Below, piece after piece: positions 4,541-60,485 of a stretch of DNA of 64,000 nucleotides. Numbering within the stretch: position 1 is the stretch's first letter; each line of letters begins with the position of its first letter. The translations under genes were made by a program, and so were the position numbers. This DNA is from Cephalotus follicularis (taxonomy: Eukaryota; Streptophyta; Magnoliopsida; Oxalidales; Cephalotaceae), in the NCBI GenBank assembly GCA_001972305.1, contig BDDD01000050.1, positions 635,859-699,858 of the forward strand. Reading direction: 5' to 3'. The notes under the pieces were generated by a model. It was given only the letters and a program-made list of their open reading frames with translations. It did no database searches and had not been told where the DNA came from.

Positions 4541-6618
4541 GTTCACTGATTCAACCCTTTATTTATAGGCTTCTTGCAGAAATGTAGTCGTTGTAATCGT
4601 CTTAGAGCCGTTGGAATCATTTAAGGAAAGTTGTCACCATTTCAGCAACTTCAAATCTTACAGATTTTCATATCTGGTTGTCTTGGGCATCGACGCTTAT
4701 GCATGGCATTGACGTCTATGGTCTGTGTGTTGATTCCATTATGTCTTAGCGTAATCTCCATATGCTTCTGTCTGATTTTTGCTCGAATTGGCGTTGAGGT
4801 GTAATCATGAAGTTGACGCATATATCCTTTGTGTTGACTTCTTCCTTGTTACGTGTTAACGACTAAACCTTCTGTAAGATTATTGCACTTTTTGGCGTTG
4901 ACGTCTTCAGTATAGGTGTTGACTCATTTCTGTCTTCACGTTAATGTCTAAGTCTCTGTTTTTTTTTTTTACACCTCTTGGCGTTCACGTCTTCATTATG
5001 GCGTTGACGCCAATATGACAATATCCAGCACATTGACGTAAATCCATGTAGTAATTGACGAGGATCATCTTGAATCTCAGAATTCATATTCAAGCTCAGC
5101 ACGTTTGTAGCGCCCCGACCCGAGTTCGCTAATAGCTCAAAGCGAACTCCGAAGATCGGTGCGTTACGTGTGTGTAACCTTTAACCGTCAAATTGTTTAA
5201 TCATTTAACGATCCATTTCATATCATAAAATCTTGGCTTAGATTTAAAACCTAACATTATTACTCAATAACTTCACAGGATCACATATGCTTACATCTTT
5301 GAAACACCAATTTCAAAATATCATATTCTCATTATCATGATCGTTTCTAATACCTTTGCATTTGTACATCACTTAATATATAACCTTTCACAGCGGAAAA
5401 ACATAAACTTATTACATCATAAAACAATCATATACACACCTTTATCATTAACTTCTCATACTCTCAAATATGTTCAATAACCTTTGATATCATCATAACT
5501 ATAGCATTCGATTCTATACGTTCACATCTATACATCGTCTATCATAAAACATTATACAGCGAAAAATATTAACACATGACATTAAAACATAGCTGCATAG
5601 CATATCATTCTTTCATTCCTTACTCTTCTTCCGCGAACTTCCACTAAAGCTCGCAACATCACGTTCAACGTTTCCTGGAAGATTTATTTAAAAACAAGAT
5701 ATTGAAAGGAGTGAGCTTTTAAGAGCCCAGTAAGAAGCATAGTTATAAAACGTTATCGAAATCCGTTATTTTTGATAATCTTTATCAAAACGTTTCAACA
5801 AAAACTGTTTTCTCTTGTAAAAACATTCATTTCATTTCATTTCACAATCATAAAACATTTCTCATCACTTTGAGTAATTAACTCAAAAACCTTTAGAAAA
5901 CAGTTTTGCATACCTTTTGTAAAATAGATATTTCGTATAGAATTAATTACTGTCTCAGAAAACTTAAAACATAAAAGTTAGAGTAGACATCTCAATGAAT
6001 CTATAGAGAGAAAAATCATAAAATTCCATTGAGAAACGAAGCTGCAATGAATTTTTAAAGTTGCAGTTTCCTTTTGAAAACAGGACCTGAGCAGTAGAAG
6101 AAAACATGGATTTTCATCAATAATTAGATAGAAAAATAACAGTTAAAGTATACATCTTGAGGTTTTCAAAACATTAAACCATTCGAAATTTCATCAAGAA
6201 CTCAGCAAGATATGAATTAAACTATCTGTTGTATAATTTTGAATCAAAACAGAGGAAGCTTTGACATAAATGGGTATAGAATTTCCTTACCTCACTTGAT
6301 CTCCTTCTCTTCTTCTCTCCCACGAATTCTCCTCTCCTAGCTCAGTAGAAACCAACGTTTTTGTTCAGCTAAGAAGGCACACATATATAAAGGGGAAGAG
6401 AAACTTGGAGGCTAAGCTTGGATGGTGTCATCCATGACCTCACCCATGTGAGCTTGCCTCCATGTGATTGAATTCAATCAATTCAGCTGATGCCACCTGC
6501 CCTATATTAGCAAAATATCATAATTCATCCATTCCTTGCTTGACACGTGCCCTACAAACCATTTAAATCCTCCCAAATGGGATAAAAAGCTAAAATTATG
6601 CACCTGACACAGGGCAAA

Positions 6619-6838
6619 GCGTCGACTCTTTACTTTTAAGCGTCGACGGTTAAGGCCTTATACAGAGCTTTTTCACCTCTATCCTGACTAAAGCGCTGAC
6701 GCTTTCTTACAAAGCGTCGACGCTTTAAGTCTTCATCTAAGTCAACTGACACATTTGATCTCCAAGCGTCGACTTTTACATTCTAAGCGTCGACCGTTAC
6801 TACCAAAGCGTCGGCGCTTTAAGTGGAACTGTCGGCGC
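6619..6838. repeat. GCGTCGACGC-type array, 21-bp phasing, in SL2
   Basis: Cores begin at 6619, 6640, 6693, 6714, 6766, 6787, 6808 and 6829. Steps of 21 bp dominate, with gaps of 53 and 52. Variants include GCGCTGACGC and GCGTCGGCGC. Spacers between cores differ. In the sense direction of SL2 (minus) the array lies upstream of the TATA box. Confidence 0.85.
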
Positions 6839-6885
6839 TTTAGACAGTTTTCCTTCTCATCACTTAGCAAAAAAAATTTCTTCTA

Positions 6886-7836: not shown

Positions 7837-8214
7837 TTAACATTTTGGTACCCAAGTGATTTTGGGTCTGTTGGAAAACGTATGTATGGAAACCTTTAAC
7901 TAAAACAATTTGTTTGCGGAATTAACAAATTAAATTATGAATATAAACAACCACACAAAAACACTCAAACAATAATAAGTAAAGAGATAAGGGATAGAGA
8001 GTGCGCAAACGATTTATAGTGGTTCGGCAAAATCCGTGCCTACGTCCACTTTCTCAAGAACCCCTTGAGTTTCCACTAGATACCACTAGCAACCTTTGAT
8101 TTTCGGCTTACGGGTGCAAATCAAAGCAAACCACCTTACACTTGATTTTGGGTTCCGGGTGCAAATTAATCAAACACCTTACAAGGGTTCACTCCCCTCT
8201 TTTACAATGGAAGA

Positions 8215-9261
8215 AAACAAGGAATACTTGTATGCATGTTTTGATATGTTACAAACACATATACTCACTTGATTGTAATGTTGAAAGTGTTGCAAAGGTT
8301 TAGATTGCATATACAGGCACATCCAGTCGACTGCCAAGCAATCCAGCCGACTGTTGAGGTTGAGTAGCCGACTGCCCAAGGATGAATAGCCAACTGGACC
8401 TTCAAAGAAACCCAACACCTGGAAATTGTCTCCAACCAGCCGACTGCCTCAGGGCTCCAGTCGACTACCATGACAATCCAGTCGACTGCCAAGGTTTCCA
8501 GCCGACTGCCAAGAAGTGCACATTTCAACCAGTGGCTTTTGTAAACTCCATTTCTAGCACCAACAGCCGACTGGAACAGAGCACCAGTCGACTGCCCAGT
8601 CCATCCAGCCGACTGCCACTCTCCAACGGCTATAATTACAAATGCACAACATTTGTCCAGCCGACTGCAAGGAAAATCCAGCCGACTGGATTTGGTTTGA
8701 ATGCTTAAAAATAGATCCGTTGGAGCATCTCTATTTAAGGAAGAATGTGGTATCTTTACACAAGAGACACAAGAAGAGATTACAAGACAATACACACTTC
8801 TTCCAAGCAACTCAAGAGCTATCCTACATCTTTCAAATCAATACCCAAAAGCTTGCAACTAGTTTATACTTTCACATCCAACCTTTAAGAGGTTATTGTA
8901 AACACAAACCAATCTTTTTATCTTCCATTGTAAAAGAGGGGAGTGAACCCTTGTAAGGTGTTTGATTGATTTGCACCCGGAACCCAAAATCAAGTGTAAG
9001 GTGGTTTGCTTTGATTTGCACCCGTAAGCCGAAAATCAAAGGTTGCTAGTGGTATCTAGTGGAAACTCAAGGGGTTCTTGAGAAAGTGGACGTAGGCACG
9101 GATTTTGCCGAACCACTATAAATCGTTTGCACACTCTCTATCCCTTATCTCTTTACTTATTATTGTTTGAGTGTTTTTGTGTGATTGTTCATATTCATAG
9201 TTTAATTTGTTAATTCCGCAAACAACTTACTTAGTTAAAGGTTTCCATACAATCTCCAACA
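8215..9261 (+). repeat. Gag-1 plus-strand 5' LTR (start missing)
   Basis: Ends CTCCAACA three bases before the primer binding site. A TATA box (CTATTTAAGG, 8731-8740) is followed by an R-U5 segment that includes a block resembling the U5 of Gag-2 ('gtggacgtaggca'). Upstream of the TATA box is the CAGYCGACTG array. The long antisense frame 8265-8810 is a by-product of the array and not a gene. Confidence 0.75.
8324..8688. repeat. CAGYCGACTG array, 20-22 bp phasing, in Gag-1 LTR
   Basis: Cores begin at 8324, 8344, 8365, 8387, then 8437, 8458, 8479, 8499, then 8564, 8585, 8606, then 8658 and 8679. Within each run the step is 20-22 bp. Full palindromes CAGTCGACTG alternate with CAGCCGACTG. The array lies 40-400 bp upstream of the TATA box at 8731. 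Confidence 0.88.
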
Positions 9262-9263
9262 AG

Positions 9264-11496: not shown

Positions 11497-12207
11497 ATAA
11501 ACTAGTTGCAAGCTTTTGGGTATTGATTTGAAAGATGTAGGATAGCTCTTGAGTTGCTTGGAAGAAGTGTGTATTGTCTTGTAATCTCTTCTTGTGTCTC
11601 TTGTGTAAAGATACCACATTCTTCCTTAAATAGAGATGCTCCAACGGATCTATTTTTAAGCATTCAGACCAAATCCAGTCGGCTGGATTTTCCTTGCAGT
11701 CGGCTGGACAAATGTTGTGCATTTGTAATTATAGCCATTGGAGAGTGGCAGTCGGCTGGATGGACTGGGCAGTCGACTGGGTGCCTCGACTGGTGCTCTG
11801 TTCCAGTCGGCTGTTGGTTCTAGAAATGGAGTTTACAAAAGCCACTGGTTGAAATGTGCACTTCTTGGCAATCGGCTGGAAACCTTGGCAGTCCACTGGA
11901 GCCCTGAGGCAGTCGGCTGGTTGGAGACAATTTCTAGCTGCTGGGTTTCTTTGAAGGTCCAGTTGGCTATTCATCCTTGGGCAGTCGGCTACTGAACCTC
12001 AACAGTCGGATGGATTGCTTGGCAGTCGACTGGATGTGCCTTTATCTACAATCTAAACCTTTGCAACACTTTCAACATTACAATCAAGTGAGTATATGTG
12101 TTTGTAACAAATCAAAACATGCATACAAGTATTCCTTGTTTGTTACTTGTTTGTTAATCATCGAAACATAACCTCTAACACATTTAAAGGGGTGGCAAAA
12201 GCCAACA
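11497..12207 (-). repeat. inverted LTR fragment (first ~710 bp) of Gag-1, with CAGYCGACTG array
   Basis: On the minus strand it starts TGTTGGCTTTTGCC at 12207 and follows the Gag-1 LTR through U3 and the TATA region, ending where homology with 8215-8870 stops. Its array (about 11676-12032) is the reverse complement of 8324-8688, with independent substitutions. The plus-strand frame at 11554-11823 is the same chance frame seen antisense at 8265-8810. Confidence 0.75.
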
Positions 12208-13865: not shown

Positions 13866-15230
13866 ATTAAAAGTCCTATGAGGCAACCTAACATGTGAGG
13901 TGAATAGAGTTCTTAGAGAAAATTGACCATTTTTGTATAAATGCCTAATAAAAAAATTTGAATCAACAACTCAAAAGGAAAATACAAAGATATAAGCATT
14001 ATATAAACAACTATAAGCAGAAAATACGATATAAGTAGAAAGAGTAAGAGTGTGCAAACAGAGTTTTAGATGGTTCGGCTAACTCTTGCCTACGTCCACT
14101 TTTCTTAAGGACCACTTGAGATTCCACTAGTATTCAATTCACTCTTGAACACGAACTCCGAATATCTTTACAGGAGCTATTCGGTGCACCTTTACAACCT
14201 TTTGTGATTGACCCCAATCATAAATACTTCTTAGGTTCACTCCCCAGATTATCACACTAAGGTTCACTCCCTTTGATAATCACACTATGGTTCACACCCT
14301 TTGATAATCACACTAAGGGTTCACTCCCCTTTTACAAAGTGTTACAATGTTGTTTGATCTTGTATAACCTCTCTTAGGTTGGATATGGAAATTATATAGC
14401 TCACAACAAAATCAGAAAATAAGGCTTGCTAATGGCACAAAAATAACTATTGAATGATTTTAATGATAATTTTCTTTCTCACTATTTTGGTTCACTGATT
14501 CAACCCTCTATATATAGGCTTCTTGCAGGAATCTAGCCATTGTAATCGTCTTAGAGCCGTTGGAATCATTTAAGGAAAGTTTTCACCATTTCAGCAACTT
14601 CAAATCTTATAGATTTTCATGTATGACTGTCTTGGGCGTCGACGCTTACGCATGCCGTCGACGTCTATGGTCTTTGTGTTGATTCCATTCTGTCTTAGCG
14701 TTAACTCCATATGCTTATGTCTAATTTTTGCTCTGATTGGCGTTGACGTGTAATCATGACGTTGACACATATTTCCTCTGTGTTGACTCCTTCCTTGTTA
14801 CGCGTTAACGACTAAAACTTCTATAAGAGTTTTGCACTTTTTGGCATCGGCATCTAATAATGGTGTTGACGTCTTCAGTATAAGTTTTGACTCCTTTATC
14901 TCTTCACGTTAACGTCTAAGTCTCTATTTGTTTTTGCACATCTTGGCATTGACATCTTCATTGTGGCATTGACGCCAATATGACAATATCCAGCACGTTG
15001 ACATAAATCATTGTAGTCATTGACGAGGATCATCTTGAATCTAAGAATTCATGCTCAAGCTGAGCATGTTAACGCCAATATAATAGGCATTGATGCCAAT
15101 AGGTCTGATATGCATGAATTGACCTGATTTAACTTGACTTGTTTGTTTTATATAATTGATCCTTCACATCAACAAATAAGTTAGGTGCTTTTTTATCATC
15201 AAAACCAAGATTGTAACACAAATGTCAACA
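13866..15230 (-). repeat. Gag-2 5' LTR
   Basis: Starts (minus) TGTTGACATTTG at 15230 and runs to the primer site. TATA box CTATATATAG at 14508-14517. The U5 side includes three near-identical copies of 'ggttcactcccyttgataatcacac' (about 14234-14330). Upstream of the TATA box is the GCGTCGACGC-type array. It lacks the SL2 insert and so preserves the empty site. Confidence 0.75.
14636..15090. repeat. GCGTCGACGC-type array in Gag-2 5' LTR
   Basis: Cores at 14636, 14655, 14676, 14698, 14740, 14759, 14780 and 14802, then looser ones to about 15090. Steps are 19-22 bp, once 42 (two steps). Most copies have lost CpGs (GCGTTGACGT, GTGTTGACTC). Sense is minus, so the array lies upstream of the TATA box. 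Confidence 0.8.
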
Positions 15231-15549
15231 ATTTCAATGCAATACAGTCGATAAATAATGGTCTCACCTATGTAGTATATCAAAAAAAAGGATAAATTAA
15301 AACTTATTACAAACATGCATCAAGCTTATAAGAGTAATGATAACAATTAATACTAGTTATTACAAGTCTGAATTTGAGTACAACTCTTAGTCCAAAACAG
15401 TACAGTACTTATACATGCTAGATATAAAGCAGTAAGGTCCAAGATGAATAATCTTCAACATAAAGTTGCAACTAGAAGTCTCAACGACCGCTGCTCCCTC
15501 TGTGTTACCTGTATCAAAATAGATGCCCCATCCTGAACGATGGGTTAGC
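15231..15549. other. unassigned island between Gag-2 and the Copia-A LTR
   Basis: No match to any repeat recognised in the window. The minus strand is open from about 15545 to 15387 (about 50 codons) and reads 'GWGIYFDTGNTEGAAVVE' within it, which looks protein-like but which I cannot assign. It could be an exon fragment of a host gene or part of a repeat. Confidence 0.3.
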
Positions 15550-17068: not shown

Positions 17069-19535
17069 TGTCGGGAATCCCGGCTCGGGAGCAGCGGAAG
17101 AAATATCGATTCGTACTTTGGGATTTATGGTCGATTAATTTTAAATTTCTCTCAATTGATTAATCCCCAAGCAATGGGTTACCCTAAACAAAGTCCAAAT
17201 CGTCCCAATAAATGCCAAGGAACATCTAATCAACATCCAATTAAACAGAAACCATAAACCCAAGCATTGGGCACAACAGGTTGATAAAGCTAGGGTTGCC
17301 ATAACCCCTAGAAATGGGACACTAACAAAGGCTTACAAGGAATAACACACAAAACCCTAGCCATAGCCCAATCAACCCTCACCCACATCATCCCTAACCA
17401 TAGGAGATGATAAACAAAGCAACGCAAGAGAACCATGGTTGGCAAGGGTTCACACACCCACATCAAGACCCACTGCCATGGTGCCACAAGAGAGGGAAGA
17501 AACGGATTGTTACCGGAGGTGAAGACTCCTTCCTTCAAGAGAGCTCCCTCTACTATTTATCCCCAAAAGCTCCAAGAGCTCCAAGTTCTCCACAAGCCAG
17601 GGATGGGAGAAGGCAAGGTGTTTAACCTAGTCTAAATCTCTCTAGGTAAAGATAAGAAGCAATGTGCAAGTTATCTCCACCTATAATGACTTTGAGTGGT
17701 GAAAGGAGGATTGAAAATGGCTGATTTAACGCACCAGGAGACACAAGCGTCGACGCATAGGCGACAGGCGTCGATGCATCCAAGAGCAGGTAGAAGAGAT
17801 CGCACGGGAGGGAAGAGAGAGAAAGAAAGAGTCCAAGTATGTTCAACAAGTTTCTCTCAAACTATTTATAGTGCTAACTTTCTGTCTCCTTTTGGAGTCA
17901 ATGTGTACACAAGGCGTCGACGTGTACGCGTCTCATATTACGAAAAGGGGTCAACGCTGTGTATAATATGAGACAGGTGTATAGTGTCATTTTTCTTTGT
18001 GTCAACGCCAAAATCCCATGCCGACAACGTGTAAAGCTACTAGTTTTTGCAGTGTCAACGCCATGCACACATAGCGTCAACGACTAGCGGCCATTCTAGT
18101 GTAGACGTCAACGTGATGCCCTATTGGCGTCGACGTGTAAAGCTACTAGTTTTTCCAGTGTCAACGCAATCCCTTCGTGTCAACGCCCAATAGCCCAACT
18201 AGACATTGGCGTCGATGCACAACCAAGGCATCGACGCCCAAGACAAAGAAAGAAGACACTCTCTTCTATTTCCAAATAAGCCTTCGCATGGAATATTTCA
18301 TCGTGGCATTGCATGGAGCTAAATCCATCAAATGAAATACTCACTAGCCAAACAACATCTTCCCTGATGTTGTCCTTTCACTAAATGATATGTGTCCCGC
18401 CACATACTAACCTGTTGAAAGTCAGGTAGGACCTGAAAGCATGTCGTTCTCCGGTATGATGATAAATTCCCAGTGCACCCCGTCATCTGGTACAACCACT
18501 CCAATAGTACATCGACTATCAGAGCAGCCCCGATGAGAGCACCAGCCACCCCCCGGATCCGTGTATTACCGTGTCTATCAATCATGGTCTGAATAGCCAT
18601 TCGCTTTATCCAGTCATCGTCATATGTGTCATGTTTCCCTCGTCCTACATGGCTCCGATCACAGCCTAGGGTTTGGATGAATGTCACCCCTAGTATTGCT
18701 GTGATAGCTTTGAATCTATGATCACAATGAGACTATCGGTAGACCTCCCATGGGAACCTTTCATTCCCAGTCCACCTTTACCTGATCAGGACTTTTAAGT
18801 CTGCAACATACATAGACAAATAGAGCCATACACCCTTAGCCTGGGTGTGACGATCCCCTATTGTGCACTCGCCCATACATCTCAGTGTAGCTCCCACAAG
18901 ACCCAAAGACAACCCTTTTACCAGCACCTGGCTAGTGCTGGGGAAGGCAAAAATCAAAGTCAAGTAGTTACCACACAATGCATGTCAGCCGCTCAGGTCA
19001 AAGGAGACAATGCAGGCTATAGACCTACTAGTCACCATAGACTATACACTACCGAGACCATAGGAATCCTATTGACATTGGGTATTGACTATCCAAATAG
19101 GTTTCCTATTGGTGGGTCTGTTCAGTGTCCTGCTCTCTAGCATACACCTCACATTTAGCTTTAGGGATTACCCCAATTGGCTACGAGATAACCAACTTCC
19201 ACTGCTAACCCGGGAGCAAGCTTAACATGACAAGTCTTTACGGTTCATCAATGGCCCTTAAGAAAGTGAACCTATGACTTGGAACATTTGTCACAGGGAA
19301 TAAGGATCTCATTCTCATAGCCCTCTCTGTAAAAGATCCAACCCTTTGAAAGTGGCATACAATTAATTAGGTATAATTAGTCTGTTCCTTTTGGTTGGTT
19401 GGGATGAGCCACATAGTCTTGCCATTAAAGAAATATGCACATGCAACATAACCGTAATTCAGAACTGTATTAATTAAGAGTGCATATATACAAACGAGCC
19501 ATATCGTGGCATACAGGGACACCCCTAACCTAACA
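17069..19535 (-). repeat. Copia-B 3' LTR (2467 bp)
   Basis: On the minus strand it starts TGTTAGGTTAGGGG at 19535 and ends GGGATTCCCGACA at 17069. It follows the polypurine tract directly. TATA box (minus) CTATAAATAG at 17862-17871. Unlike the Copia-A LTR it carries a GCGTCGACGC array. The frames at 17308-18080 and 18328-19140 are chance. Confidence 0.82.
17747..18240. repeat. GCGTCGACGC-type array in Copia-B LTR
   Basis: Cores near 17747, 17768, 17895, 17914, 17948, 17999, 18018, 18052, 18074, 18105, 18127, 18158, 18177 and to about 18240. Steps of 19-22 dominate, with gaps of 31-34. Most lie upstream (minus sense) of the TATA box at 17862-17871; two lie downstream. Variants GTGTCAACGC and GCGTCGATGC indicate CpG decay. 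Confidence 0.78.
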
Positions 19536-22830: not shown

Positions 22831-22923
22831 GTGTTAGAATGGTGTGCTCACAAATGCATTGTCTTATTTCTCACTTCCTTCAATCTCTGTGTAGCACTGT
22901 AAACACACCTAAACTCATGTAAA

Positions 22924-23165
22924 GCGCCGACGCTCTTCCCCTTTGTTTCATCAAAGCATCGATGCCTTCCCACAATTATGTATAATCCTATTTTGTTAAT
23001 GTAAAGCATCGACGCCATCCTGTTTTGTTTTGTAAAGCGCCGACGCTCTGTCTTCAAAGTTTGAGTTTTTAAAATGTTTAAGCGTCGCCTGTGTCCTGAT
23101 AAACGTCGACGCTTATGCTAGAAGAGTCGACAGTTTTGGCTTTGTTTTAGCTAAAGCGCTGACCC
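22924..23165. repeat. GCGYCGACGC-type array in SL3
   Basis: Cores at 22924, 22956, 23006, 23037, 23082, 23103, 23124 and 23156. Steps are 21, 31-32, 45 and 50 bp, mostly near multiples of 10.5. Several have GCGCCGACGC. Here the array is downstream of the presumed TATA box, unlike most other LTRs. Confidence 0.7.
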
Positions 23166-25247
23166 TTTCGCAGGGATTTTTAATTTCTTATTTGAATTGT
23201 TATTTTTATATCTTTTAGATAACTGTACCAATGGAAGTGCTGCGTAGGATTGTTTGATTTTCTCTTGAGGATAATTTTGGTGTTTACGTAAGGTACGGAT
23301 GTCCTTCTTTCTTGGCTATCTTTCTGATTTTATTTGAAATAATGTCAGATTCTGTATTTGGCATAGATCTCCTTTCTTGGTTATCATCGATCGGTTTTTG
23401 ATTGAATAAAACCTGTTTTATTGCCTAATGAATATGTACGGATTCTATCGTTCTTTGGCTATCTGATTTTATTTAAACAGTCCAGTTTCACTTTTATAAT
23501 TAATGTAGGGATTATTCTTTCGTTCTTGGATATTCCTCGATTAAATTGAATAAAGTCGATTTTTACTGTTTGATGATTATGTACGGATACATCGTTCTTT
23601 GGTATACTCCTTATGTTTATTAAGTAAATGTTTCTATGATTTTTCTCCTGATTTTATTCGGAATAAAATTTAGATCTTTAATCTATGTACGTATTTTCGA
23701 CATTCCTTTATATTTACGAATTTTTTAAAATAAAGCCAGCTCTAATATTTTTGAAATTAAATATTCCTGACTTTATAAAATTGAGTTATGATTCATTTAC
23801 GAAAATCTTGCACGCATATCTCTTTTATTGTGAAAATTAAATGAGTTGGTTCCTGAATATGAAAATGTACGGGTTTCTTGTTTTTAGTTTATTCTTTTGT
23901 TATTTATGAAAATTATTCCAATTTCGTTACGGATTTTCTTTCCTTGATTTTTAATTGTGAAAATGTCCGGATTTCTTTGTCTCTGGGTTTTATTCTATGC
24001 TTTTATTCAAATGAATTCAGACTTGTTTTTCGCACGTATTTTTCGTTTTGGCGAATATGTTTCGACATGATAAAATATGTTTTATTACTTTCGATGTAAA
24101 GTTAAATATTACTGATTTTACAAATTCAGCATGATTTTCATCTAAGAAAGTATGCTAAATTTTTATGATACAGATTTCATTATGAGAATGATTTTCAATT
24201 ACGGAAATATGCTAATTTTAAGATATGATTTGGTTTTGTGAGTAAACCAATGGTTGGAAATGATTTTGATAAATCATTATTTTTGAAATACTAAGAATAT
24301 ATTGTTTCCTACCTATGGAGGTACCATAGGCATGTCGTAGGCCTGGCACGGGGACATGACACTTCCGAAGCGGTGTGATTAGTCTACGGCGTCTCTTAAT
24401 ATCTTGTGATAGGATATGGCCAACTGAGGCGTATGGATCGATTCTAGTTATTATAAGATAAGATACAGTATTGGGATTGATTGTGTAGTGTCGAACACGT
24501 CATTCCGTTTGGCAAGTGGATTCTGTAGGATCCCTTGCATATATGTATGTATTTAATTCGATATTTCATCTCTCAGTATAAGACAAGGTTTTTGAGAAGT
24601 TTTGGAAATGAATTGTTCTGTTTTTGTAAAGGATTAGTATTGTTCCATTACGTGAACTGTTTCGTAAATTGTCTTGTTTCGTAAAATGTTTTATTTCGTA
24701 TTCTGAAGTTTTGATTACTGTTTCGTATCAAACATTGTTCTGTTTCGTATTCGTTGTCATTCGCAACTGTTTTATTTGGCTTCGTCTCGTAACTGTTATG
24801 ATTTTGGAAACTGATCTATTTCGTAATCTGTCTTGTTTCATACTGCTTTATGATTCTATATTCGTACTGAGGTTTGCTCAGCCGCGTTTTTGTTTCCATG
24901 CGGCAGGTTATCTGGAGCTTTGGGGGCAAGTATGATAAGAGAGCAACCTATGACTTGAGGATTTTATTAGAAATGCTATGTTTTTCAGAACTATGATTTC
25001 CAGTTCTAGTTGCATTATCAGATTATGTTTAGACCACCACGTGTTAAATTGGAGACCAATTCGTTTATGAGTAGAATTTAAGTTTTGAATCTTAAATTTT
25101 CTTTTATCAATTTAATTAGAAATTTATTACTGTTTTTAATGACATAAGTTTAGGATATGCTGATATTTTTTTATTAGTTCGGTTTAGCGTGACATTTCCG
25201 GTTCTGAATTGGGGGTGACATCCTGATCCCGAACCGGGGGTGTTACA

Positions 25248-25555: not shown

Positions 25556-25711
25556 TGTCCTATCATGCCCGGGATTTTCATTAAGTATAATATTGTATTT
25601 CCAAAGTAAATTACGCTTTGAATAATGAGAATTATAGATTTTCCCATGTTGTGGTGTTAAAGTTGCATACAAAGATAGAGGAAATTGTAAAATGTGTGGG
25701 AACCAGGTGGC

Positions 25712-25836
25712 CAACCGATTGTCCAAGGGAGGCAGTCGACTGGACACCCTTAAGTGTAACCAGCTGACTGCTGAGGAAACAGCCAGCTGGAAGTTGTCGA
25801 CAGAGGCAGCCGACTGCCAAGCAAAGCAGCCAACTA
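25712..25836. repeat. CAGYCGACTG array, cluster 1, Gypsy-1 5' LTR
   Basis: Cores at 25712, 25733, 25761, 25780, 25794, 25807 and 25827; spacing looser than in clusters 2 and 3. It starts about 150 bp from the LTR start, the same place as the first array of SL4. The counterpart in the 3' LTR is 35734-35868. Confidence 0.75.
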
Positions 25837-26379
25837 CCATCGGTTAGACAGTATAACGTGCTGCCAGACCTGGCATGACAGAGGGAAAGTAAATTTGGGG
25901 GTTGTGCCGGAAGAGAAAGAAAGAAATGAGGGGGAAACATATTTTCTCCATAAAAACACATTTTCTCTCCTCTTCCCATCAGCAATCCAAGAGACAAAGA
26001 GTTGTGAGGAAGAAAGGAGAAGAAAAGAAAGAAGGAGGTTGAGCCCGAATGCTCCGCACTTGAACCGAAAGCTTGGAGACTCGAACCAGGGGGGAGAGCT
26101 GGACCTGTTGGAGTCCTTGGACGGACCTGGGAGTTTTGAATGCCTCGGATCCGTGACTCAAAGTGGTGGATTGCAATTCCTAACTTGGAATTCAAAGGTA
26201 GGGGAAATTTTATAAATGTGATTTAAGTTCTGTTATAATGGACGCTCATGAATTAAATGCATGCAATGGACTGTGATATGAGCATGAAATGTGTTGTTGA
26301 TGATAAATGCTCTGTTGTGTTTGGATTTGGATTGACGATTGCAAGTATTTTCTATTGTTTTGTGCATTGCGCGTAGGAC

Positions 26380-26604
26380 TAGCCGACTGTTCAAAGAGGA
26401 CAGCCGACTATTCAAGGTTACCAGTCGACTGTTCAATGCGAACAGCCCACTACTCGAGGGAAATAGCCGACTGTGCTAAGGAGCCAGTCGACTGTTCATG
26501 CGTTTTAATGGAGGTTTTCTCCTGTTGTATGACTAGCCAACTGCAAAGAGAAGGCAACCAACTGATTCATGGCACAGCCGACTGTTTGGGATGACAGTCG
26601 ACTG
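26380..26604. repeat. CAGYCGACTG array, cluster 2, exact 21-bp phasing
   Basis: Cores at 26380, 26401, 26422, 26443, 26464 and 26485 (five successive steps of exactly 21), then 26534, 26555, 26575 and 26595. The 11-base spacers differ from one another, so only the core and the pitch are conserved. Counterpart in the 3' LTR about 36402-36625. Confidence 0.92.
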
Positions 26605-26687
26605 TCCACGTGTCACTTCACCCGGATTTGCTGAGGTGGCAATGCTGGGGTGAGTGGCGAGGTAGAAGATGCGTATTGTTCACGAAA

Positions 26688-26863
26688 CAGCCGACTGTCG
26701 TGCGGAGACAGCCGACCGTTAAAGGGGCAGCCGACTGTCAAAATGAGACAGCCGACTGTTAAGGGAGGCAGCCGACTGCCAAATACGGGACAGCCGACTT
26801 TTAAAAGGAAACAACCGACTGTCATGAGGAAACAACCGACTGTCATGAAGTGGCAACCGACTG
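26688..26863. repeat. CARCCGACTG array, cluster 3, 19-22 bp phasing
   Basis: Nine cores at 26688, 26709, 26728, 26749, 26769, 26791, 26812, 26833 and 26854. Eight read CAGCCGAC or CAACCGAC, that is, they contain RCCGAC on the plus strand. Steps are 21, 19, 21, 20, 22, 21, 21, 21. The same nine positions and steps recur in the 3' LTR (36707-36882). Confidence 0.92.
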
Positions 26864-28016
26864 TTGAGGGACTGACTTGCATTTTGAGCATATGCTTGCA
26901 TCGTATTTTGATATGAAATGAATTGATGATTGAAATGCGAGTGATTATAAAGTGTTTTATTCATTTTAGAAATGTGTACATGATTTTATACAAATCATTA
27001 TTTGATATGAAAATATATATTTTGATAAACCTATGTTTTTGACGGATTGAAACATGGTTTCAAAGATGTGATAAATTTTAAAATAAATGTATTATTTCCA
27101 GTATTTTATAAATTACTTGAAAACGATTAGATTTGATTTGATTGTGATTGATGCCGTACTAGCTCGGGTGACGGAGTGTCGTCGATGGCTGGTGGCAGGA
27201 TGTTTTTCTAGGGGCCAGGAGATGGCTAGGAACATCCAAATACAATGTTATTAGACACATAGTGCAAGTAACACGGGTTACCATGATTGTTGAACACAGA
27301 GTGCGAGCATCATGAGTTTGATTTGTTGCCTTGCTTCGTGACCCGGGAGTCAGGGGCCGGAGTAAGAGTACGACGTCGGGGCCAGGAGGTGGTGGTGCTC
27401 TTCGTACCTATTTGATTTGATTTGATTTGTCCTTTGAGACATGATTGATGATATGATGGTTGTAGCCACTTGGCATAGTTGCACATATTGGCATAGATAC
27501 ATATATGTATATATGTATTGTGATATATTGTATATTGCATCATGGATGCATTCATTTCATGACATTCATTATCATTGACCCTAAATTACACTTATGATTT
27601 AGCCGAGTGAGGACAAAGGATAACCCCCTACTATTACAAAATTGATGCAGTGACTTGGACATCGACCGTGAGCGGCCGAATCAGAGGGGAGACGGAGTTT
27701 TATCTACTTGAATAAATGTTAAAACAATGTATTAAAACATGTTTTATTTCAGATTACTGTACTGATGTATTAATGATGTTAATCTACTTTGATCACGCTC
27801 CGTTTGTGGGCAGTTGACAATGACTTAATAATATTAAATGTTGGAATCGTGTGGTATGGGACGCATGGTTCGGTTTACCTTCAGCTTATTATTAAATGCT
27901 TCCGCAAGATGTTAATGGTATTTAAAGTTTTAAATTTTACCGTATTGACATAAGCTGAATATTTATGTTAATTGCCATGACTTACATGTTGTTAACGAAG
28001 TGGGGTGTGATAGACA

Positions 28017-31190: not shown

Positions 31191-31766
31191 ATACAATGAT
31201 ATCTCAGTGGAAGATGTTAGAGGACTTCCAAAAGTGGTCCCCATTTAATCAGTCACCGGGGGTTTTTGTGGCTAGAATGCAAGCACAACCGGTGCTACTG
31301 GACCATATAAAGGATGCACAGTTGCGTGATCCTGAGTTACTGAAGGTTTGCGAGAATCTGGAGCCTGAGTCTGATTTTCAGATGCATTCTGACTGCATTC
31401 TGAGATTTCAGGGCCGAGTATGTGTTCCTGATGAGGCTTGGATAAGAAGTGAGTTGTTATATACGGCACATAAATCATGGTATAGCATACATCCTGGTAG
31501 CACAAAAATGTATCAAGACATGAGAAGGGATTACTGGTGGTCTGGCATGAAGAGGGAGATTGCTGACTATGTTGCGAAGTGTTTGTAACGCCCGAGATTT
31601 TCATGTATTATAATTTCACATTGTATTTGTACTTTTGAATTGTGGAATTAATAAAGGATGGATTTTCCAAAATTGGTGATGTTTTCCCATCTCTATAATG
31701 TTGAATTGTTGTGTTAAATGCTAAATGAATGTTAAAAGGGCTAAACGACGTTGTTCTGGGGGAAAC

Positions 31767-31915
31767 ACGTCGACGCTTTTATTATCACGTCGACGCCTTT
31801 GAGGCAAACGGGCGCACGTAGCTGCATGCACATGCACATCGACTCGGACGAAGACATCGACGTCCTCGTGTATAATGGTGATAGACATCGACGCCTTTGT
31901 AAAGACGTCGACGCC
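31767..31915. repeat. ACGTCGACGC array, cluster 1, SL4
   Basis: Cores at 31767, 31787, 31836, 31854, 31885 and 31905, followed by 'cc/tt' in most. It lies about 180 bp from the LTR start, upstream of the TATA-like box. Confidence 0.78.
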
Positions 31916-32764
31916 TTAACTTCGAATGTCATGCATGTTACTCTGCTGACAAACAACGTGCGAAGGGGAGTCTTTTTAGAACCCTTCTCAGGCGCCTTGG
32001 GGTATGGATTAGGACATGTTGGGTATGCACCTTACTACCTAACTTGCATGGCTGAAATTATGTGGACAAGTGTAGCTTGTGTGTGGACATGCAACAAATG
32101 CAAGAAGAATGGGACATGTGTGCATGCAAGGGATGGATAGAATGAACGGGGCACTGTCTGGCATGAAGGACTGAGAAACGAGCCCAGCTGCTACATGCAT
32201 AGGTGGGGGTGTACCCTAGACACATGTGACCTGCAACAAAAATGCAAAGGAAGAAGAAGGAGGGTGAGTTGCATAAAAGACAGCCTCCACCTCCTACCTT
32301 CGGCTGTTATTGATTAAGAAAGAACCAGACACTTGAGAGAGACACTGTGACTACTGGAAAACAGAAAATAAAGGAGAGAAAACACTTCCACCATTGTTGA
32401 GCTTGGAGCTTAGACCTTGGAGCTACTAGTGCAGCTACGGGACGGACCTAGAGGGGCTGCTGTGACCAGTTTGGAAACGAAAAGAGGTGGACTTTCCAGT
32501 TCCTAACTTGGAACAAAAGGTAGGGGATAGCCATAACTGTAATCTCGAGTTTGATATTCATGTATGGTCTATGATTTTGGGTGTATGAAATGCATGATTC
32601 TTGAACTAATTTTGCTACTGGATTGATGCCATGATATGCTAGATATGTTTTGAGTATCTGCATGTTGGTTTCTTGCCTCGATTACCTGTTATTACGCATG
32701 ATTATGGGTTGTTAAGGCTACTGTGTGTTATGTCGTGAGGAAGAAGATGACTGCTGTTGGATAG

Positions 32765-33086
32765 ACATCAACGCCTTTTAAATAAACATCGATGTCTTTT
32801 TAGTTTTGCCTTGTTACTGATTGAAAGGGATCAACGTCTATAGAAAGACATCGACGCCTTAGGCTACCTGCCTGGATTTTGACGCGTTATACGTCGACGC
32901 CTAAGGTTCCTCTTAACACGTCAACGCCGTCAACAATACGCTGTCGTTTTAAGGTTCCAGACCTTGAGCATCGACGCGCATGAAATGGACATCGACGCCT
33001 TCTGCTGAAGAATGCGCTGACACTGAGACTTGGACATCGACGCCTGTTGGAAAAGACATCGACGCCTTTTGGATAGACATCGATGT
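32765..33086. repeat. ACATCGACGC array, cluster 2, SL4
   Basis: Cores at 32765, 32786, 32828, 32848, 32891, 32918, 32968, 32989, 33014, 33034, 33056 and 33077. Steps of 20-22 predominate, with 42 and 43 as double steps. It lies downstream of the presumed transcription start, like clusters 2 and 3 of Gypsy-1. Confidence 0.8.
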
Positions 33087-35059
33087 CTTTAGAACTGTTT
33101 GGGGTTTTCTTCATCTAACGATACGAAACGATCCCGATGCCTGTTAGGGCGCATTTGAGCATTTGTATGCATTGCACATATACTGTTTTACTGCCTGTTT
33201 GTACTGTTTGTACTTGGATTATGATTTCTAATGTGTTGTTACCTTAGAAATGCATATGTGAACTGAAACTACTATTTTGAGTACGAACGAATACTAACAT
33301 CGTATTTTCAAATATATTTGGGAAGCGATTTCCATTACTGTACTGTTCAAAAGTATTTTCTACTGAAAATGTCTATTTCAAATGTTGTCGCTTTTGGAAA
33401 CATTTTGGGAAACAACTGCCTGTTGTCGATCTAAACGATCATTACTGTTTATTGTACTGTTACTGTTTGAATTCACTGTTTGCATTGTGAATTGCTATGT
33501 GGTTGTGTTTGCGCTACTAGTTGCATGGCAGAGGCTGCCAGCGCCGACTAGTGGTAGGGTTGTACCTAGGGGCCAGGAGCATGGCTAGGTGACTCACTGT
33601 ACTGTTGCCTCGCTCGTTTGCCCGAAGTGGTGACCGGAGTGGGAGTGTAGCGTGGTGCAAGGAGTTGGCGGCGCTATGCATACTGTTGATGTGGTCCTAT
33701 GTGGACATACTGACTGTTGTTGTGGTCCTATGCGGACATACCGTACTGCCTGTTGGTCCTTCTTGGACATTACTATGTTTATTGATGTAGCCCTGGCCGG
33801 GTTACTACTGTATTGTTACTGCATACGCATATTTCTTATATATGTAACACTGATATCTACTGTACTGTTAAAATATATATATTTCTCATATATATATATG
33901 AGTTGGCTTTCCTACACTGCATCATTTACGCATTCATATCATGACATGCATTACGTTAATCCCGAACTGCTGTTATGACTTGGCCGAGTGAGGACAAAGG
34001 CTAACCCCCTACTTTACAGATTGATGCAGCGGACCGGTTGGACAGACATGGGCGAAGATCAAGTTGTTATGTTCTTGATTTTGCTTCTCCTGCTTTGTAT
34101 TAAACCTGTGTGGGTTATGGTTTTCGGATGTACCGTTGTTACGGTTTTGTTTCTGTTGGAGTTTAAAATTGTACTGTAATTCACGCTCCGTTTTATGGGC
34201 GATTAACTATGATGACTTGTATTTGGGTAGCGTGCGGTATGGGACGCACGTTACGAGTTACAGCTTATGAACTTGTTATGCTTCCGCAACTGACAGTTTG
34301 TTTAAAAGTTTTAATTTTATGGATTTTACATGAGCTGTATTTTATGTTAATTGCCTTTACCACTTTAATGTTGCGTTTCTCATGAATGGGGTGTGACAGT
34401 GTTATACTTGTCAGACTGTCAAGGCTAAGCACCAGAGGCCAACGGGTTTTTTACAGCCCTTACCGATTCCATAGTGGAAATGGTAACATGTGACGATGGA
34501 TTTTGTTTCAGGTTTTCCTCTGACTCGAAACCATGACAATGCGGTGTGGGTTATCGTGGATCAGCTTACCAAATCGGCTCACTTTTTGCCTACCCACGTC
34601 AGAGATTCAGCGAGCAAGTTGGCTCAGTTATACATCAAGGAGATTGTGAGGTTGCACGGTGTTCCTATGAGTATAGTTTGTGACAGAGATTCGATCTTCA
34701 CTTCCAACTTTTGGAAGAGGTTTCATATAGCTTTTGGGGCGAAGCTGAACCTTAGCACTACCTTTCACCCACAGACAGATGGTCAGTCAAAGCGTACCAT
34801 CCAGACTTTGGAGGATATGCTCCGAGCTTGCATTATTGACTTTACTGGTACTTAGGAGGACCATATTCCTCTGATAGAGTTTTCTTATAATAACAGCTAT
34901 CATTCCAGTATTGGTATGGCACCATACGAGGCTCTATATGGAAGAAAGTGTAGATCACCCATTTGTTGGGATGAGGTTGGTGAGCGACCGTTGCTTGGGT
35001 CAGATCTGGTGGAAGAGACTTCTAAGAAAGTCAGGATTATTATGGAGAAACTGCTTGCA

Positions 35060-35582: not shown

Positions 35583-37998
35583 TGTCACGCCCGGGATTTT
35601 CATTAAGTGTAATATTGTGTTTCTAATGTAAATTACACTTTGAAATAATGAGAATTATGGATTTTCCCACGTTGTGGTGTTAAAGTTGCATAAAAAGATA
35701 GAGGAAATTGTAAAATGTGTGGGAACCAGGTGGGCAGCCGACTGTCCAAGGGAGGCAGTCGACTGGACCCCCTTAAGTGTAACCAGCCGACTGCTGAGGA
35801 AACAACCGGCTGGAAGTTGTCGGCAAAGGCAACCGACTACCAAGCAAAGCAGCCGACTGCCATGGGTCAGACAGTATAACGTGTTGCCAGACCTGGCATG
35901 ACAGAGGGAAAGTAAGTTGGGGGTTGTGCCTACAGAGAAAGAAAGAGAGGAGGGAGAAATGTATTTTCTCCATAAAAACAAATTTTCTCTCCTCTTCCCA
36001 TCAGCAAGCCAAGAGACAAAGAGTTGTGAGGAAGAAAGGAGAAGAAAAGAAAGACGGAGGTTGAGTCCGAATGCTCCGCACTTGAACCGGAAGCTTGGAG
36101 ACTCGAACCAGCGGGGAGAGCCGGACCTGTTGGAGTCCTTGGATGGACCTGGGAGCTTTGAACGCCTCGAATCCGGGACTTAAAGAGGTGGATTGCAATT
36201 CCTAACTTTGAATTCAAAGGTAGGGGAAATTTTATAAATGTGATTTAAGTTCCATTATAATGGACGGTCATGAATTTAATGCATGCAATGGACTGTGATA
36301 TGAGCATGAAATGTGTTGTTGATGATAAATGCTCGGTTGTGTTCGGATTTGGACTGACAATTGCATATATTTTCTGATGTTTTGTGCACTGCGCGTAGGA
36401 CCAGCCGATCCAAAGAGGACAGCCGACTGTTCAAGGTTACCAGTCGACTGTTCAATGCGAACAGCCCACTACTCGAGGGAAACAGCCGACTGTGCTAAGG
36501 AGCCAGTCGACTGTTCATGCATTTTGATGGAGGTTTTCTCTTGCTGTATGACTAGCCGACTGCCAAGAGAAGGCAGCCGACTGATTGGTGACACAGCCGA
36601 CTGTTTGGGATGACAGTCGGCTGTCCACGTGTCCCTTCACCCGGATTTGTTGAGGTGGAAATGTTGGGGTGAGTGGCGAGGTAGAAGATGCATACTATTC
36701 ACGAAACAACCAACTATCGTGCGGAGATAGCCGACTGTTAAAGGGGCAGTCGACTGTCAAAATGAGACAGCCGACTGTTAAGGGAGGCAGTCGACTGCCA
36801 AATACAGGACAGCCGAATGTTTAAAGGAAACAGCCAACTGTCATGAGGAAACAACCGGCTGTCATGAAGGGGTAGCCGACTATTGAGGGACTGACTTGCA
36901 TTTTGAGCATATGTTTGCATCGCATTTTGATATGAAATGAATTGATGATTGAAATGTGAATGATTCTAAAGTGTTTTATTCATTTTAGAAATGAGTACAT
37001 GATTTTATACAAATCATTATTTGATATGAAAATGTATATTTTGATAAATGTATGCGATACGTTTTAAAATAAATGTATTATTTGCAGTATTTTATAAATT
37101 ACTTGGAAACGATTAGATTTGATTTGATTGTGATTGATGCCGTACTGGCTGGGGTGACGGAGTGTCACCGATGGCTGGTGGCGGCATGTTTTCCTAGGGG
37201 CCAGGATATGGCTAGGAACGCCCAAATACAATGTTACTAGACACATAGTGCAAGTAACACGGGTTACCATGATTGCTGAACACAGAGTGCGAGCATCATG
37301 AGTTTGATTTGTTGCCTTGCTTCGTGACCCGAGAGTCGGGGGTCGGAGTAAGAGTACTACGTCGGGGTCAGGAGATTGCGGCGTTCGTCGTACCGATTTG
37401 ATTTGATTTGATTTGTCCTTTGAGACATGATTGATGATATGATGGTTGTAGCCACTTGGCATGGTTGCACATATTGGCATAGATACATATATGTATATAT
37501 GTATTGTGATATATTGTATATTGCATCATGGATGCATTCATTTCATGACATTCATTATCATTGACCCTAAATTACACTTATGATTTAGCCGAGTGAGGAC
37601 AAAGGCTAACCCGCAACTATTACAAATTGATACAGTGACTTGGATATCGACCGTACGCGGCCGAATCAAAGGGGAGATGGAGTTTTATCTACTTGAATAA
37701 ATGTTAAAACAATGTCTTAAAACATGTTTTATTTCAGATTACTCTACTGATGTATTAATGATGTTAATCGACTTTGATCACGCTCCGTTTGTGGGCAGTT
37801 GACAATGACTTAATAATATTAAATGTTGGAATCATGTGGTATGGGACGCATGGTTCGGTTTTACCTTTAGCTTATTATTAAATGCTTCCGCAAGATGTTA
37901 ATGGTATTTGAAGTTTTAAATTTTACCGTATTCGCATAAGTTGAATATTTATGTTAATTGCCATGACTTACATGTAGTTAACGAATCGGGGAGTGACA
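35583..37998 (+). repeat. Gypsy-1 3' LTR
   Basis: Starts TGTCACGCCCGGG and ends GGGAGTGACA. Collinear with the 5' LTR, with the same three palindrome clusters (35734-35868, about 36402-36625, 36707-36882) at the same steps but many independent core substitutions. A 60-bp stretch of the 5' LTR near 27035 is shortened here near 37045. Confidence 0.9.
36707..36882. repeat. CARYCGACTG array, cluster 3, Gypsy-1 3' LTR
   Basis: Cores at 36707, 36728, 36747, 36768, 36788, 36810, 36831, 36852 and 36873. Steps 21, 19, 21, 20, 22, 21, 21, 21 are identical to those of the 5' LTR, so spacing has survived while the cores mutated (for example CAACCAACTA and CAGCCAACTG). Confidence 0.92.
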
Positions 37999-53784: not shown

Positions 53785-54045
53785 ACATCGATCTAAAAGG
53801 CTAAAGTTGACAAAACTGTCTAAAGCGCCGACGGTCTTATTTAAAGCGTCGCCGCTTTGGACAACGGTCGATGTCCTAATTTAAGACGTCGACGCGTTGA
53901 AGATTAATGTGTCAGTTGACTTAGACGAAGACTTAAAGCGTCGACGCTTTGTAAGAAAGCGTCAGCGCTTTAGTCGGGATAGAGGTAAAAAAAAAACTCA
54001 GGTAAAGGCTGTGACAGTCGACGCTTAAAGGTAAAGAGTCGACGC
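53785..54045. repeat. GCGTCGACGC-type array, 21-bp phasing, in SL5
   Basis: Cores at 53785, 53804, 53825, 53846, 53865, 53886, then 53913, 53938, 53959, then 54015 and 54036. It lies 250-500 bp upstream of the TATA box. Flanking AA/TT often extends the palindrome to AAAGCGTCGACGCTTT. Confidence 0.85.
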
Positions 54046-58700: not shown

Positions 58701-60485
58701 GTTGACGCCATCCTAGGCTAACACACGCCTTTTACCAGCTTATGGGAAGTTGGTGGGCAAATGGGAAGTGTTCTCAGCAAGCCAAAGAGTGGACTTTGAG
58801 CGTTTAATGAGAGAGGAGAAATTTGCATATAAGACAATAGGTCTTTAATGTTCAAAAATACACTTTACTCTTCCTCTCTCTCTTCCAGCTCGTGCGTTTC
58901 GCTTTCTTCTCTTTCTATCTGATCCGCAATAGGCGTTGATGTAACGCCCCTGATCCGAGTTCCCTTTAAGCTCAAAGCGAGCTACGAGGGTCGGTTGCTT
59001 TACGTACGGTGTGTTACTATTAATCCTTAATAATCTTACAAATTGCTTCTCATAATTTCAAATATAACTTATAACCTTCAATACTAAAATTTCTAATAAC
59101 ATACTATCGTTTAAATCATCATAAACCATAACATTCATAATTAACCTCATTCTGATACATTTCACAGCTGAAAAATATTAACTTATTACATCAACAGTAC
59201 TTTATACATAACATTATTGTAAAACATAATTTCTTTCCAGACTTGCTTTCCGAGCTTCCTTTAAAGCTCAAATTCCACGTCAATCATCTCCTGGAAATTT
59301 TATTTAAAAAAAATATTGAAATGAATGAGCTTAAATGGCCCAGTAAGAATTATAGTTATAAAAATGTTATCGAAATTCCTTTTCGATAATCTTTATATCT
59401 AAACGTTTCAAATCGTACATTCTTTCGGCATATAACATAGCCATACTTGAAAATAAAACATCATTAAAATTCTTTTTTGGTATAAAAACCAGCATGTTTA
59501 ACATTCATTTCCCTTTTAAAATCACATTCATTCTTTTCTGTTCATATCTCATGAAACAGAACATTTCATTTCTTTTTCTGATCATATCTCATGAATCAGA
59601 ACATTTCATAAATAACTGAGGGGTTGTATAAACTTAAATAACCTAATTGAACCATTGCTTCCCCGGGGCATTGTGCACTCCTCGATTACTATCCTTACAT
59701 CACATGCATGTTTGTGAGCACTCTCCGCTCATAACATTAATCTTTACTAGATTAATCCTCCCTGGATCGCAATCTAGTAGTTGTTCATCTTAGTTCATTA
59801 CATTTTCACATTTCATAAATCATTTCATAAATATTTTGAGTGGTCAGCTCAAAGAATTCGTAAACAAACAAATTCGTACAACATTTTGTAAAACTGAATT
59901 TACATAAAAACAGAAAAATTATGGTAGTCATTTCAACGATGATAAATTCAAAATAACAGCAAAACATGAGCAATAATTTTAACATAGAATTTTATCAATA
60001 ATTTAGCAGAAACTCGAAATACGTAAAACATAACAATTTGCTATATAATGTTTAGAAATAATATAAATTACTTTAGCATAAAAATATAGAATAAAATACT
60101 TTGAAAAAAGGATAGTAATCCTTACATTGCTTCAATCTCGTTCTTTCCTTTTCTACACTGAAGTAATTTCTACACTAAAATCACAGCAGAATTTTCCCTC
60201 TTTTCTCTTCTCTTCTCTTATCTCTCTTTCTTTCTCTCCCTCTTTCTCTCCCTTCAGTAAAATTTTTACTGCCCTCAGACTTACCTTCACACGGTATTTA
60301 TAGCGGATGCAGCCGCCCTCTCCCTTCTCTTTCTTGCCATAGGAAAACGACAAGTGTCGTTTTCTTACCACAAGCGGCTACAGAAATCTACCGCCTTCCT
60401 TTCATCTGTTGACACGCGTCCTTATTTAGAATTATTAACGCGTAAAACGAAAAAAGTCACCGGCATTTCCAATTTTTTTCTCAAA

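Follow-up and report, generated by a model that had tools for sequence, protein, structure and literature searches.

The long terminal repeats (LTRs) of several retrotransposons in the DNA analyzed here, a 64,000-nucleotide stretch of the Cephalotus follicularis genome (the window) that looks like plant DNA dense with nested LTR retrotransposons, carry rows of short palindromes at a pitch of 21 bp. The palindromes fall into three classes, occur in both the Ty3/gypsy and the Ty1/copia superfamily, precede TATA-like sites in several elements and, in the pooled set, are phased by whole turns of the helix from run to run. The earlier observation on this DNA is confirmed and larger in extent than first noted, and the interpretation offered with it is partly supported. 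Judging from sequence, we give roughly even odds (a probability of about 0.5) to the reading that the LTR arrays are enhancers to which a dimeric DNA-binding protein of the host would bind cooperatively and so drive LTR transcription. To our knowledge, the activation trigger of plant LTR retrotransposons is known for few elements, and an array shared by unrelated families, fixed on the helix, whose 21-bp pair occurs tens of thousands of times in a single genome would give a direct handle on a common regulator.

Arrays in the window

The features are collected in Table 1. Gypsy-1 is a Ty3/gypsy element based on the domains of its internal region (gag, RVP_2, RVT_1, RNase H (RT_RNaseH), integrase zinc binding and SH3_Tf2-1 in Pfam), and its PBS, TGGTATCAGAG, is at 28017. 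The six core starts originally listed for it (26380, 26401, 26422, 26443, 26464 and 26485), in five steps of 21 bp, are right, while the sequence CAGYCGACTG that had been assigned to all six is exact only at 26422 and 26485, the other four having 1, 1, 2 and 1 mismatches. The nine cores described for cluster 3 were also found, with starts from 26688 to 26854 and gaps of 21, 19, 21, 20, 22, 21, 21 and 21 bp. A splice-donor-like AGGTAGG is located at offset 636 of the Gypsy-1 LTR, and a pattern search upstream of it found no TATA.

Among the other arrays named earlier, those at 8324-8688, 6619-6838, 32765-33086 and 53785-54045 are clear and the one at 60486-60765 is looser, while that at 58423-58700 is weak; the array at 14636-14802 retains two intact sites, the remainder being decayed TTGAC-like forms. 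A coding repeat (21 bp being 7 codons) was considered and rejected, as a 190-codon stop-free minus-strand stretch in 8265-8837 is cut to 98 codons in its homologous counterpart and the stop-free stretches of the Gypsy-1 arrays reach just 85 and 63 codons. The nested 2.8-kb gypsy-type LTR at 31586-~34400 seems to have inserted into the Gypsy-1 integrase region, has no recognised internal region and is probably a solo LTR. The copia-like LTR has long inverted repeats near both ends (7883-8221 and 8914-9251, 339 bp, 96.8%), which flank its array and are unusual for an LTR.

Table 1. LTRs and core arrays located in the window
Feature	Position	Strand	Remarks
Gypsy-1 5' LTR	about 25561..28012, ends approximate	+	self-BLAST pair 25563-28010 / 35585-37996, 91.8%
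Gypsy-1 3' LTR	35585..37996	+	arrays 35735-35859 and 36420-36882, in register with 5' LTR
Gypsy-1 upstream CAG-class array	25712..25836	+	offsets about 150-280 from LTR start
Gypsy-1 six-core run	26380..26494	+	pitch exactly 21 bp
Gypsy-1 four-core run	26534..26604	+	gaps 21, 20, 20
Gypsy-1 nine-core run (cluster 3)	26688..26863	+	gaps 19-22
Copia-like LTR	7869..9261	+	TGTTGG...CCAACA ends; copia gag (PF14223) then at 9311
Copia-like CAG-class array	8324..8688	+	13 cores (at most 2 mismatches), 44-408 bp upstream of TATTTAAG at 8732
Inverted copy of copia-like array region	11497..12141	-	92.8%; lacks one 21-bp unit, has a 13-bp insertion
AAAGCGTCGACGCTTT-class array of 5.9-kb family	6615..6841	-	LTR at about 5935-7071; 235-445 bp upstream of TATA-like site
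AAAGCGTCGACGCTTT-class array, second copy of 5.9-kb family LTR (53544-54766)	53821..54048	+	
Nested gypsy-type LTR, upstream array, AAGACRTCGACGCCTT class	31763..31917	+	LTR 31586-~34400, inside Gypsy-1
Nested gypsy-type LTR, second array	32761..33089	+	after AGGTAGG donor-like site, as in Gypsy-1
AAAGCG-class array	22920..23168		7 sites
AAAGCG-class array	60482..60765		6 sites, spacing looser
AAAGCG- and AAGAC-class sites	17743..18240		six, scattered
Repeat with old array	14487..15232	-	cores mostly decayed to TTGAC-like (by eye); second copy 4538-5105 and 7074-7238

Conservation of cores and spacers

Identity between units was much higher in the core than in the flanks: 0.83 in comparison to 0.38 for Gypsy-1 (3 of the 27 rows of the 5' LTR, at 25780, 26264 and 27600, were left out as off-motif or isolated), 0.89 in comparison to 0.35 for the copia-like LTR, and 0.76 in comparison to 0.32 for the 5.9-kb family. 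The Gypsy-1 units are thus not alike along their whole length, as those of a satellite or minisatellite would be. The claim that the spacers differ each time holds to this extent, yet flank identity, which rises to 0.42 between adjacent Gypsy-1 units, exceeds the 0.25 of random 12-mers from the Gypsy-1 and copia-like LTRs, and the neighbors 26812 and 26833 are near-identical, so that some residue of tandem duplication is present.

These residues, together with higher-order periods of 42 and 63 bp and the one 21-bp unit by which the two copia-like copies differ, are what would be expected if a 21-bp unit had been spread by slippage and its spacers had drifted with no function involved. Such ordinary tandem duplication is nevertheless very unlikely to account for the arrays, based on several results. 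Recent gain or loss of units in Gypsy-1, suspected from the positions, was rejected, since the alignment of the two LTRs puts the cores in register, with 3 bp lost from one core and zero whole units gained or lost. The core is also far more alike than the spacer despite changing faster in Gypsy-1, where the two LTRs since insertion differ at 29 of 237 core positions in comparison to 9 of 211 spacer positions (Fisher p 0.003), and 27 of the 29 core changes are transitions, as expected for methylated CG. A core which mutates faster after insertion and is yet better kept between units suggests selection while the family was active. The faster change of the core was absent in the copia-like pair (3/120 in comparison to 1/87) and in the 5.9-kb family (18/112 in the core in comparison to 141/1002 in the rest).

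Furthermore, the core is common to LTRs with little likeness in their spacers. The flanks of the Gypsy-1 and copia-like cores are 0.28 identical in comparison to 0.251 (sd 0.009) for random sequence, and BLAST matches from array to array are short, the best being 59 bp at 76% (E 3e-4). The shared core thus looks convergent or very old, and some exchange of array sequence between the two families, as far as can be read from these alignments, may have taken place.

Enrichment of the 21-bp pitch in the window and the genome

The pitch of 20-22 bp that had been reported for the window stood up to shuffling: 45 pairs of RYCGAC-type cores lie at this distance (149 cores on either strand, duplicated LTR copies left in), in comparison to a mean of 0.08 and a maximum of 1 in 60 block-wise dinucleotide shuffles. 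A scan of 5-mers containing three or more different letters, in which three duplicated LTRs were represented by a single copy each, gave GTCGA the top excess at lags 20-22, with 29 pairs in comparison to an expectation of 1.8 derived from other lags.

A systematic sample of the 1.577 Gb genome was drawn to avoid the selection behind the original prediction; it consisted of 25 stretches of 10 kb (250 kb; contigs 1-20 and 41-45 at 300001-310000), with 5,700 N within the first 200 kb. Among 5-mers with at least three different letters at lags 9-51, the two strongest signals were GTCGA at lag 21 (42 pairs in comparison to 3.55, z 20.4) and at lag 20 (36 in comparison to 3.55, z 17.2), while the best z in three shuffled samples was 6.8. 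GTCGAC also ranked first of the 64 palindromic 6-mers at lags 19-22 in the sample (17 pairs), followed by GACGTC with 8. Clusters of at least three cores with gaps up to 130 bp numbered 28 in the sample and contained 167 of the 351 RYCGAC centres. In the whole genome, CAGYCGACTG-N11-CAGYCGACTG has 55,531 forward and 55,829 reverse occurrences, in comparison to 165 and 160 for the reversed-pattern control; this count covers the 21-bp spacing of the CAG class only, and a fully palindromic pair of cores is counted on both strands.

Array-bearing direct repeats were seen in the stretches L024 (6302-10000; identical over 1,654 bp) and L031 (39-4303; 98.8% identical over 1,818 bp), and such near-identical repeats indicate that young copies still have arrays.

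Flank classes of the cores

The original prediction described a single GTCGAC-core motif. GTCGAC is indeed enriched, while at least three flank classes were found around the TCGA/CG centre, namely CAGYCGACTG, AAAGCGTCGACGCTTT and AAGACRTCGAYGTCTT, in both Ty3/gypsy and Ty1/copia elements. Of 780 RYCGRY sites in the sample and the window, 233 have a neighbor at 18-23 bp, and these divide into 87 with CAGYC half-sites, 46 with AAAGCGTC, 73 with (A)AAGACRTC and 27 with none. The half-sites are 5-9 bp long, palindromic and conserved on both sides of the core, making palindromes of 16 bp for the AAAGCGTC class and about 18 bp for the (A)AAGACRTC class. The CAG class was seen in Gypsy-1 and the copia-like LTR, the AAAGCG class upstream of copia gag ORFs in the stretches L007 and L029, and the AAGAC class both in the nested gypsy-type LTR and close to ORFs for gypsy integrase in L024. 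The AAGAC class also lies close to copia ORFs in the stretches L010 and L018, where the owner element is ambiguous. The outer AAAG of the cores might conceivably be a Dof site.

The RCCGAC form, included in the earlier description, makes up 39 of the 87 CAG-class sites and is a minority outside that class (6/46 and 1/73), and 9 of the 73 third-class sites have an ATCGAT centre. These counts bear on the idea that the cores are DREB/CBF (DRE/CRT) sites and the arrays confer cold or drought inducibility, which is mainly a guess at the identity of the binder. Some of the CAG class agrees with the forms GTCGAC, GCCGAC and RYCGAC. In the available portions of the sources, a table names GTCGAC CRTDREHVCBF2 and RYCGAC CBFHV (PMC9138379), a classifier links DREB1D sites to plant LTRs (PMC11656987), and stress-linked maize transposable elements carry A/GCCGACNT (PMC4287451). 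The flank palindromes and the ATCGAC/ATCGAT-centred class are left unexplained by DRE/CRT sites, and the rarity of RCCGAC outside the CAG class makes DREB/CBF unlikely as a common reader. In addition, a palindrome of 16-18 bp exceeds what a monomer AP2 site needs. On the whole we regard this identification as quite improbable, and no one known factor was found to fit all three classes. The portion of PMC10670769 available to us contains no binding-site sequence.

The arrays had been said to be shared by unrelated LTR families, which is so for Gypsy-1 and the copia-like LTR and is not so for Gypsy-1 and the gypsy-type LTR at 31.6 kb, which have skeleton blocks in common (115 bp at 81.7%, 197 bp at 70.6% and 48 bp at 83.3%) and carry different motif classes at matching places. 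Moreover, the orientation of CAGCCGACTG is uniform within each of 9 arrays with at least three such sites, with the exception of one of nine sites in the Gypsy-1 3' LTR, so the array sites may be read with polarity.

Both features are shared with the targets of VANC proteins. According to the parts of PMC5735166 and PMC10398659 at hand, VANC targets in the VANDAL DNA transposons of Arabidopsis have the non-palindromic motif YAGTATTAY and a transposon-encoded binder, and their arrays resemble the present ones in that a short motif, varying among related families, forms dense tandem arrays in non-coding transposon DNA, with same-orientation motifs in non-coding regions and introns (PMC5735166). 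By analogy, a transposon-encoded protein might bind the tandem motifs and remove methylation, with related families switching motif and protein together. This kind of anti-silencing seems rather unlikely here. The VANC21 motif YAGTATTAY is not enriched in the present DNA (1 match in comparison to 2.54 expected); Pfam scans of some ORFs identified no extra element gene; and the occurrence of the core in both superfamilies favors a host factor. Pieces of a hAT transposase ORF were also seen in stretch L014 (6611-9782) between inverted 170-bp repeats (74.7%) with class 2/3-like sites, which resemble 14491-14877 of the window; the arrangement could reflect a DNA transposon that bears sites of this kind, or else nested insertion.

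Helical phasing between runs

Free B-DNA has a period of 10.5 bp. In the spectrum of lags from 24 to 160 bp, each of the six data-motif combinations had its top period in the range of 6 to 30 at 10.3-10.5 and not at 21. Significance was assessed with nulls in which tandem runs (gaps 18-23) were kept rigid and every other gap was jittered up to 5 bp, any period from 10.2 to 10.7 being permitted. With the strict RYCGAC motif, the observed power was reached by 104 of 500 nulls for the window, 15 of 500 for the sample and 2 of 500 for both, in comparison to 49, 1 and 0 of 500, respectively, with a loose motif allowing decayed cores. After related clusters were collapsed, the strict motif gave 10 of 1000 nulls, and its 78 far gaps had Rayleigh p values of 0.013 at 10.3, 0.067 at 10.5 and 0.38 at 21. 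The weight-matrix set (364 sites in 58 clusters, 28 after collapsing) showed a power of 40.3 in comparison to a null 95% of 13.4 (0/500 nulls), and the p values for its 71 far gaps were 4e-5 at 10.3, 0.08 at 21 and 0.36 at 9.5. Larger sets of nulls for the 28 collapsed clusters at 10.3 bp, 2000 for each of three ways of defining a rigid run, reached the observed power 1, 0 and 5 times, and the period of 10.3 held under leave-one-out.

Using 10.4 bp, a period picked after the spectrum was seen, 53 of the 70 inter-run gaps fell within a quarter turn; these were 26 of the 33 odd-turn gaps and 27 of the 37 even-turn gaps. The odd-turn gaps in phase go beyond what a 21-bp tandem repeat predicts, which again argues against simple duplication. 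The zero-phase period was 10.34 bp (bootstrap 10.26-10.43) for lags 24-250, slightly below 10.5, and 10.38 (10.30-10.54) for lags 24-160, a range that takes in 10.5. Phase coherence extended to about 300 bp and was lost at 300-450 bp.

The phasing differs in firmness by class. In the collapsed set, the observed power was reached by 1 of 500 nulls for the AAAGCG class (12 clusters), 10 of 500 for the AAGAC class (10 clusters) and 2 of 500 for the CAG class (four clusters), whose far gaps were without significance. In a targeted CAG-class set (16 contig 1 stretches chosen from listed 21-bp pairs, plus L001 and L005), nulls were 0/500 uncollapsed, 7/500 after lenient collapsing (11 clusters) and 141/500 after strict collapsing (2 clusters); the uncollapsed far gaps fitted best at 11.0 among the periods compared, better than at 10.3-10.5, and a 28-bp gap, which is out of phase, recurred. 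Whole-turn phasing is thus firm in the pooled set and in the AAAGCG class and fair in the AAGAC class, and between runs of the CAG class alone it is not established. The proposal that the sites face one side of the helix is supported in the pooled set, where inter-run gaps favor whole turns, and the CAG class taken by itself may or may not follow it.

A zero-phase period below 10.5 that stays coherent to about 300 bp would also suit chromatin geometry, in which CG-centred sites are spaced for the nucleosome surface, through rotational positioning or through access of a methyltransferase or methyl-CG reader; in the spacers, SS dinucleotides are in phase and WW half a turn out. This pattern is not separable from the effects of AT-rich flanks and of undetected sites 20-23 bp away, and palindromes of 10-18 bp are much more specific than rotational positioning needs, so that we give this explanation a small chance, similar to that of DREB/CBF sites.

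Position in the LTRs and comparison with Sireviruses

The arrays tend to be located ahead of TATA-like sites. Measured from the LTR start, the array is at 459-814 and the TATA-like site at 863 in the copia-like LTR, and the corresponding values are 242-452 and 687, and 290-501 and 754, for the two copies of the 5.9-kb family; the nested gypsy-type LTR has its upstream array at 186-324 and CATAAAAG at 687. In stretch L007 an array at 3979-4330 is followed by a TATA at 4433, a PBS at 4998 and a gag ORF from 5061. Both long gypsy-type LTRs have a second array downstream of the donor-like AGGTAGG.

The earlier observation knew of no named plant element answering to this description, which proved wrong or incomplete, since palindromic repeated motifs of Sireviruses have already been named (Bousios et al. 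2010, PMC2829016). As described in the text available from that paper, these RM boxes are palindromic, number 8-32 copies per element in 13 Sireviruses, and lie mainly in the LTR's upper half, ahead of the TATA box, some of them before the ENV gene; their sequence is element-specific around a conserved core, a CGG-CCG signature is present in 12 of the 13 elements tabulated (Tnd-1 being the exception), and they are described as Sirevirus-specific. The TCGA centre is common to the present arrays and the boxes of Vitis (CGGTCGACCG) and Tnd-1 (ACAATCGATTGT), and the Vitis box has no match within 1 mismatch in the window.

The copia-like LTR has some Sirevirus features. Its 13 cores agree with the boxes in number and in place ahead of the TATA-like site, and its junction, CA/AGTGG-TATCAGAGA at 9260-9275, agrees with the Sirevirus form CA/ATTGG (or AGTGG) followed by TATCAGAGC except for the last base; it differs in that its core is CAGYCGACTG and lacks the CGG-CCG signature. 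Sireviruses are reported to have several AGGGGGAG tracts, the last one 10 bp upstream of the 3' LTR (PMC2829016, in the part available), and the window contains just two, both in the copia-like element (11079 and 11327), after which no 3' LTR start was recognised. Gypsy-1 is not a Sirevirus, having Ty3/gypsy and not Ty1/copia domains. In comparison to the boxes as that text presents them, with no mention of pitch, the arrays here also occur in Ty3/gypsy LTRs, lack CGG-CCG, form three classes across families and are helically phased. The anatomy is of a kind already known from Sirevirus boxes, and the present arrays stand apart by the Ty3/gypsy presence, the TCGA centre without CGG-CCG and the phasing. 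No description of helically phased palindromes in LTRs was found among the papers listed by the literature searches, which, being judged from titles and abstract starts, is weak evidence of absence.

For the Sirevirus palindromes of maize a role in RNA has been proposed (PMC10760457, as far as its accessible text goes), and transcripts of the present palindromes might likewise form hairpins, leading to small RNAs or to dimerisation of genomic RNA. Two of eight segments fold far better than shuffles (z -6.3 in the 5.9-kb family and -3.5 in copia-like 8560-8700), two further segments in Gypsy-1 have z of -2.5 and -2.1, and the other four are unremarkable (z -0.6 to -1.2). Folding needs neither whole-turn phasing near 10.34 bp nor a location upstream of TATA, and we consider an RNA role highly improbable as the explanation of the arrays.

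Possible function of the arrays

Under the enhancer reading, the arrays would serve the LTR retrotransposons as cis-regulatory modules. Most of them would belong to U3, ahead of the TATA box, and the two long gypsy LTRs would have another module past their splice-donor-like site. Each palindromic core would be a site for a dimeric sequence-specific host protein, and with the copies on one face of the helix the dimers would sit side by side and could jointly recruit the transcription machinery. We infer protein binding, cooperativity, activation and the host origin of the protein from the palindromic half-sites, the kept cores as against drifting flanks, the core common to Gypsy-1 and the copia-like LTR, the phasing of the 28 clusters, the arrays upstream of TATA-like sites and the Sirevirus precedent. 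The reading is weakened by the lack of a TATA by pattern in Gypsy-1, by the confinement to that element of the core/spacer difference since insertion, by the weak phasing of the strict motif in the window, by the unproven phasing of the CAG class and by the possible exchange between families.

A wider proposal, which is possible and which we hold only tentatively, is that both superfamilies converged on one grammar of helix-phased rows of TCGA-centred palindromes in at least three classes, with sister gypsy families differing in class. If this is true, a few host proteins binding as a phased filament would be master regulators common to many LTR elements, and the elements would switch between them. 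Independently of this proposal, the arrays extend the Sirevirus box, which the available text of PMC2829016 called genus-specific in 2010, to Ty3/gypsy elements, with spacing as a testable part of its grammar.

Other features of the window

From 41514 to 53544 zero array sites were called. A piece of a multicopper oxidase (laccase-like) gene is located at 49145-50188, and a 29-bp tandem repeat of 5.5 copies, unrelated to the arrays, is at 46653-46812.
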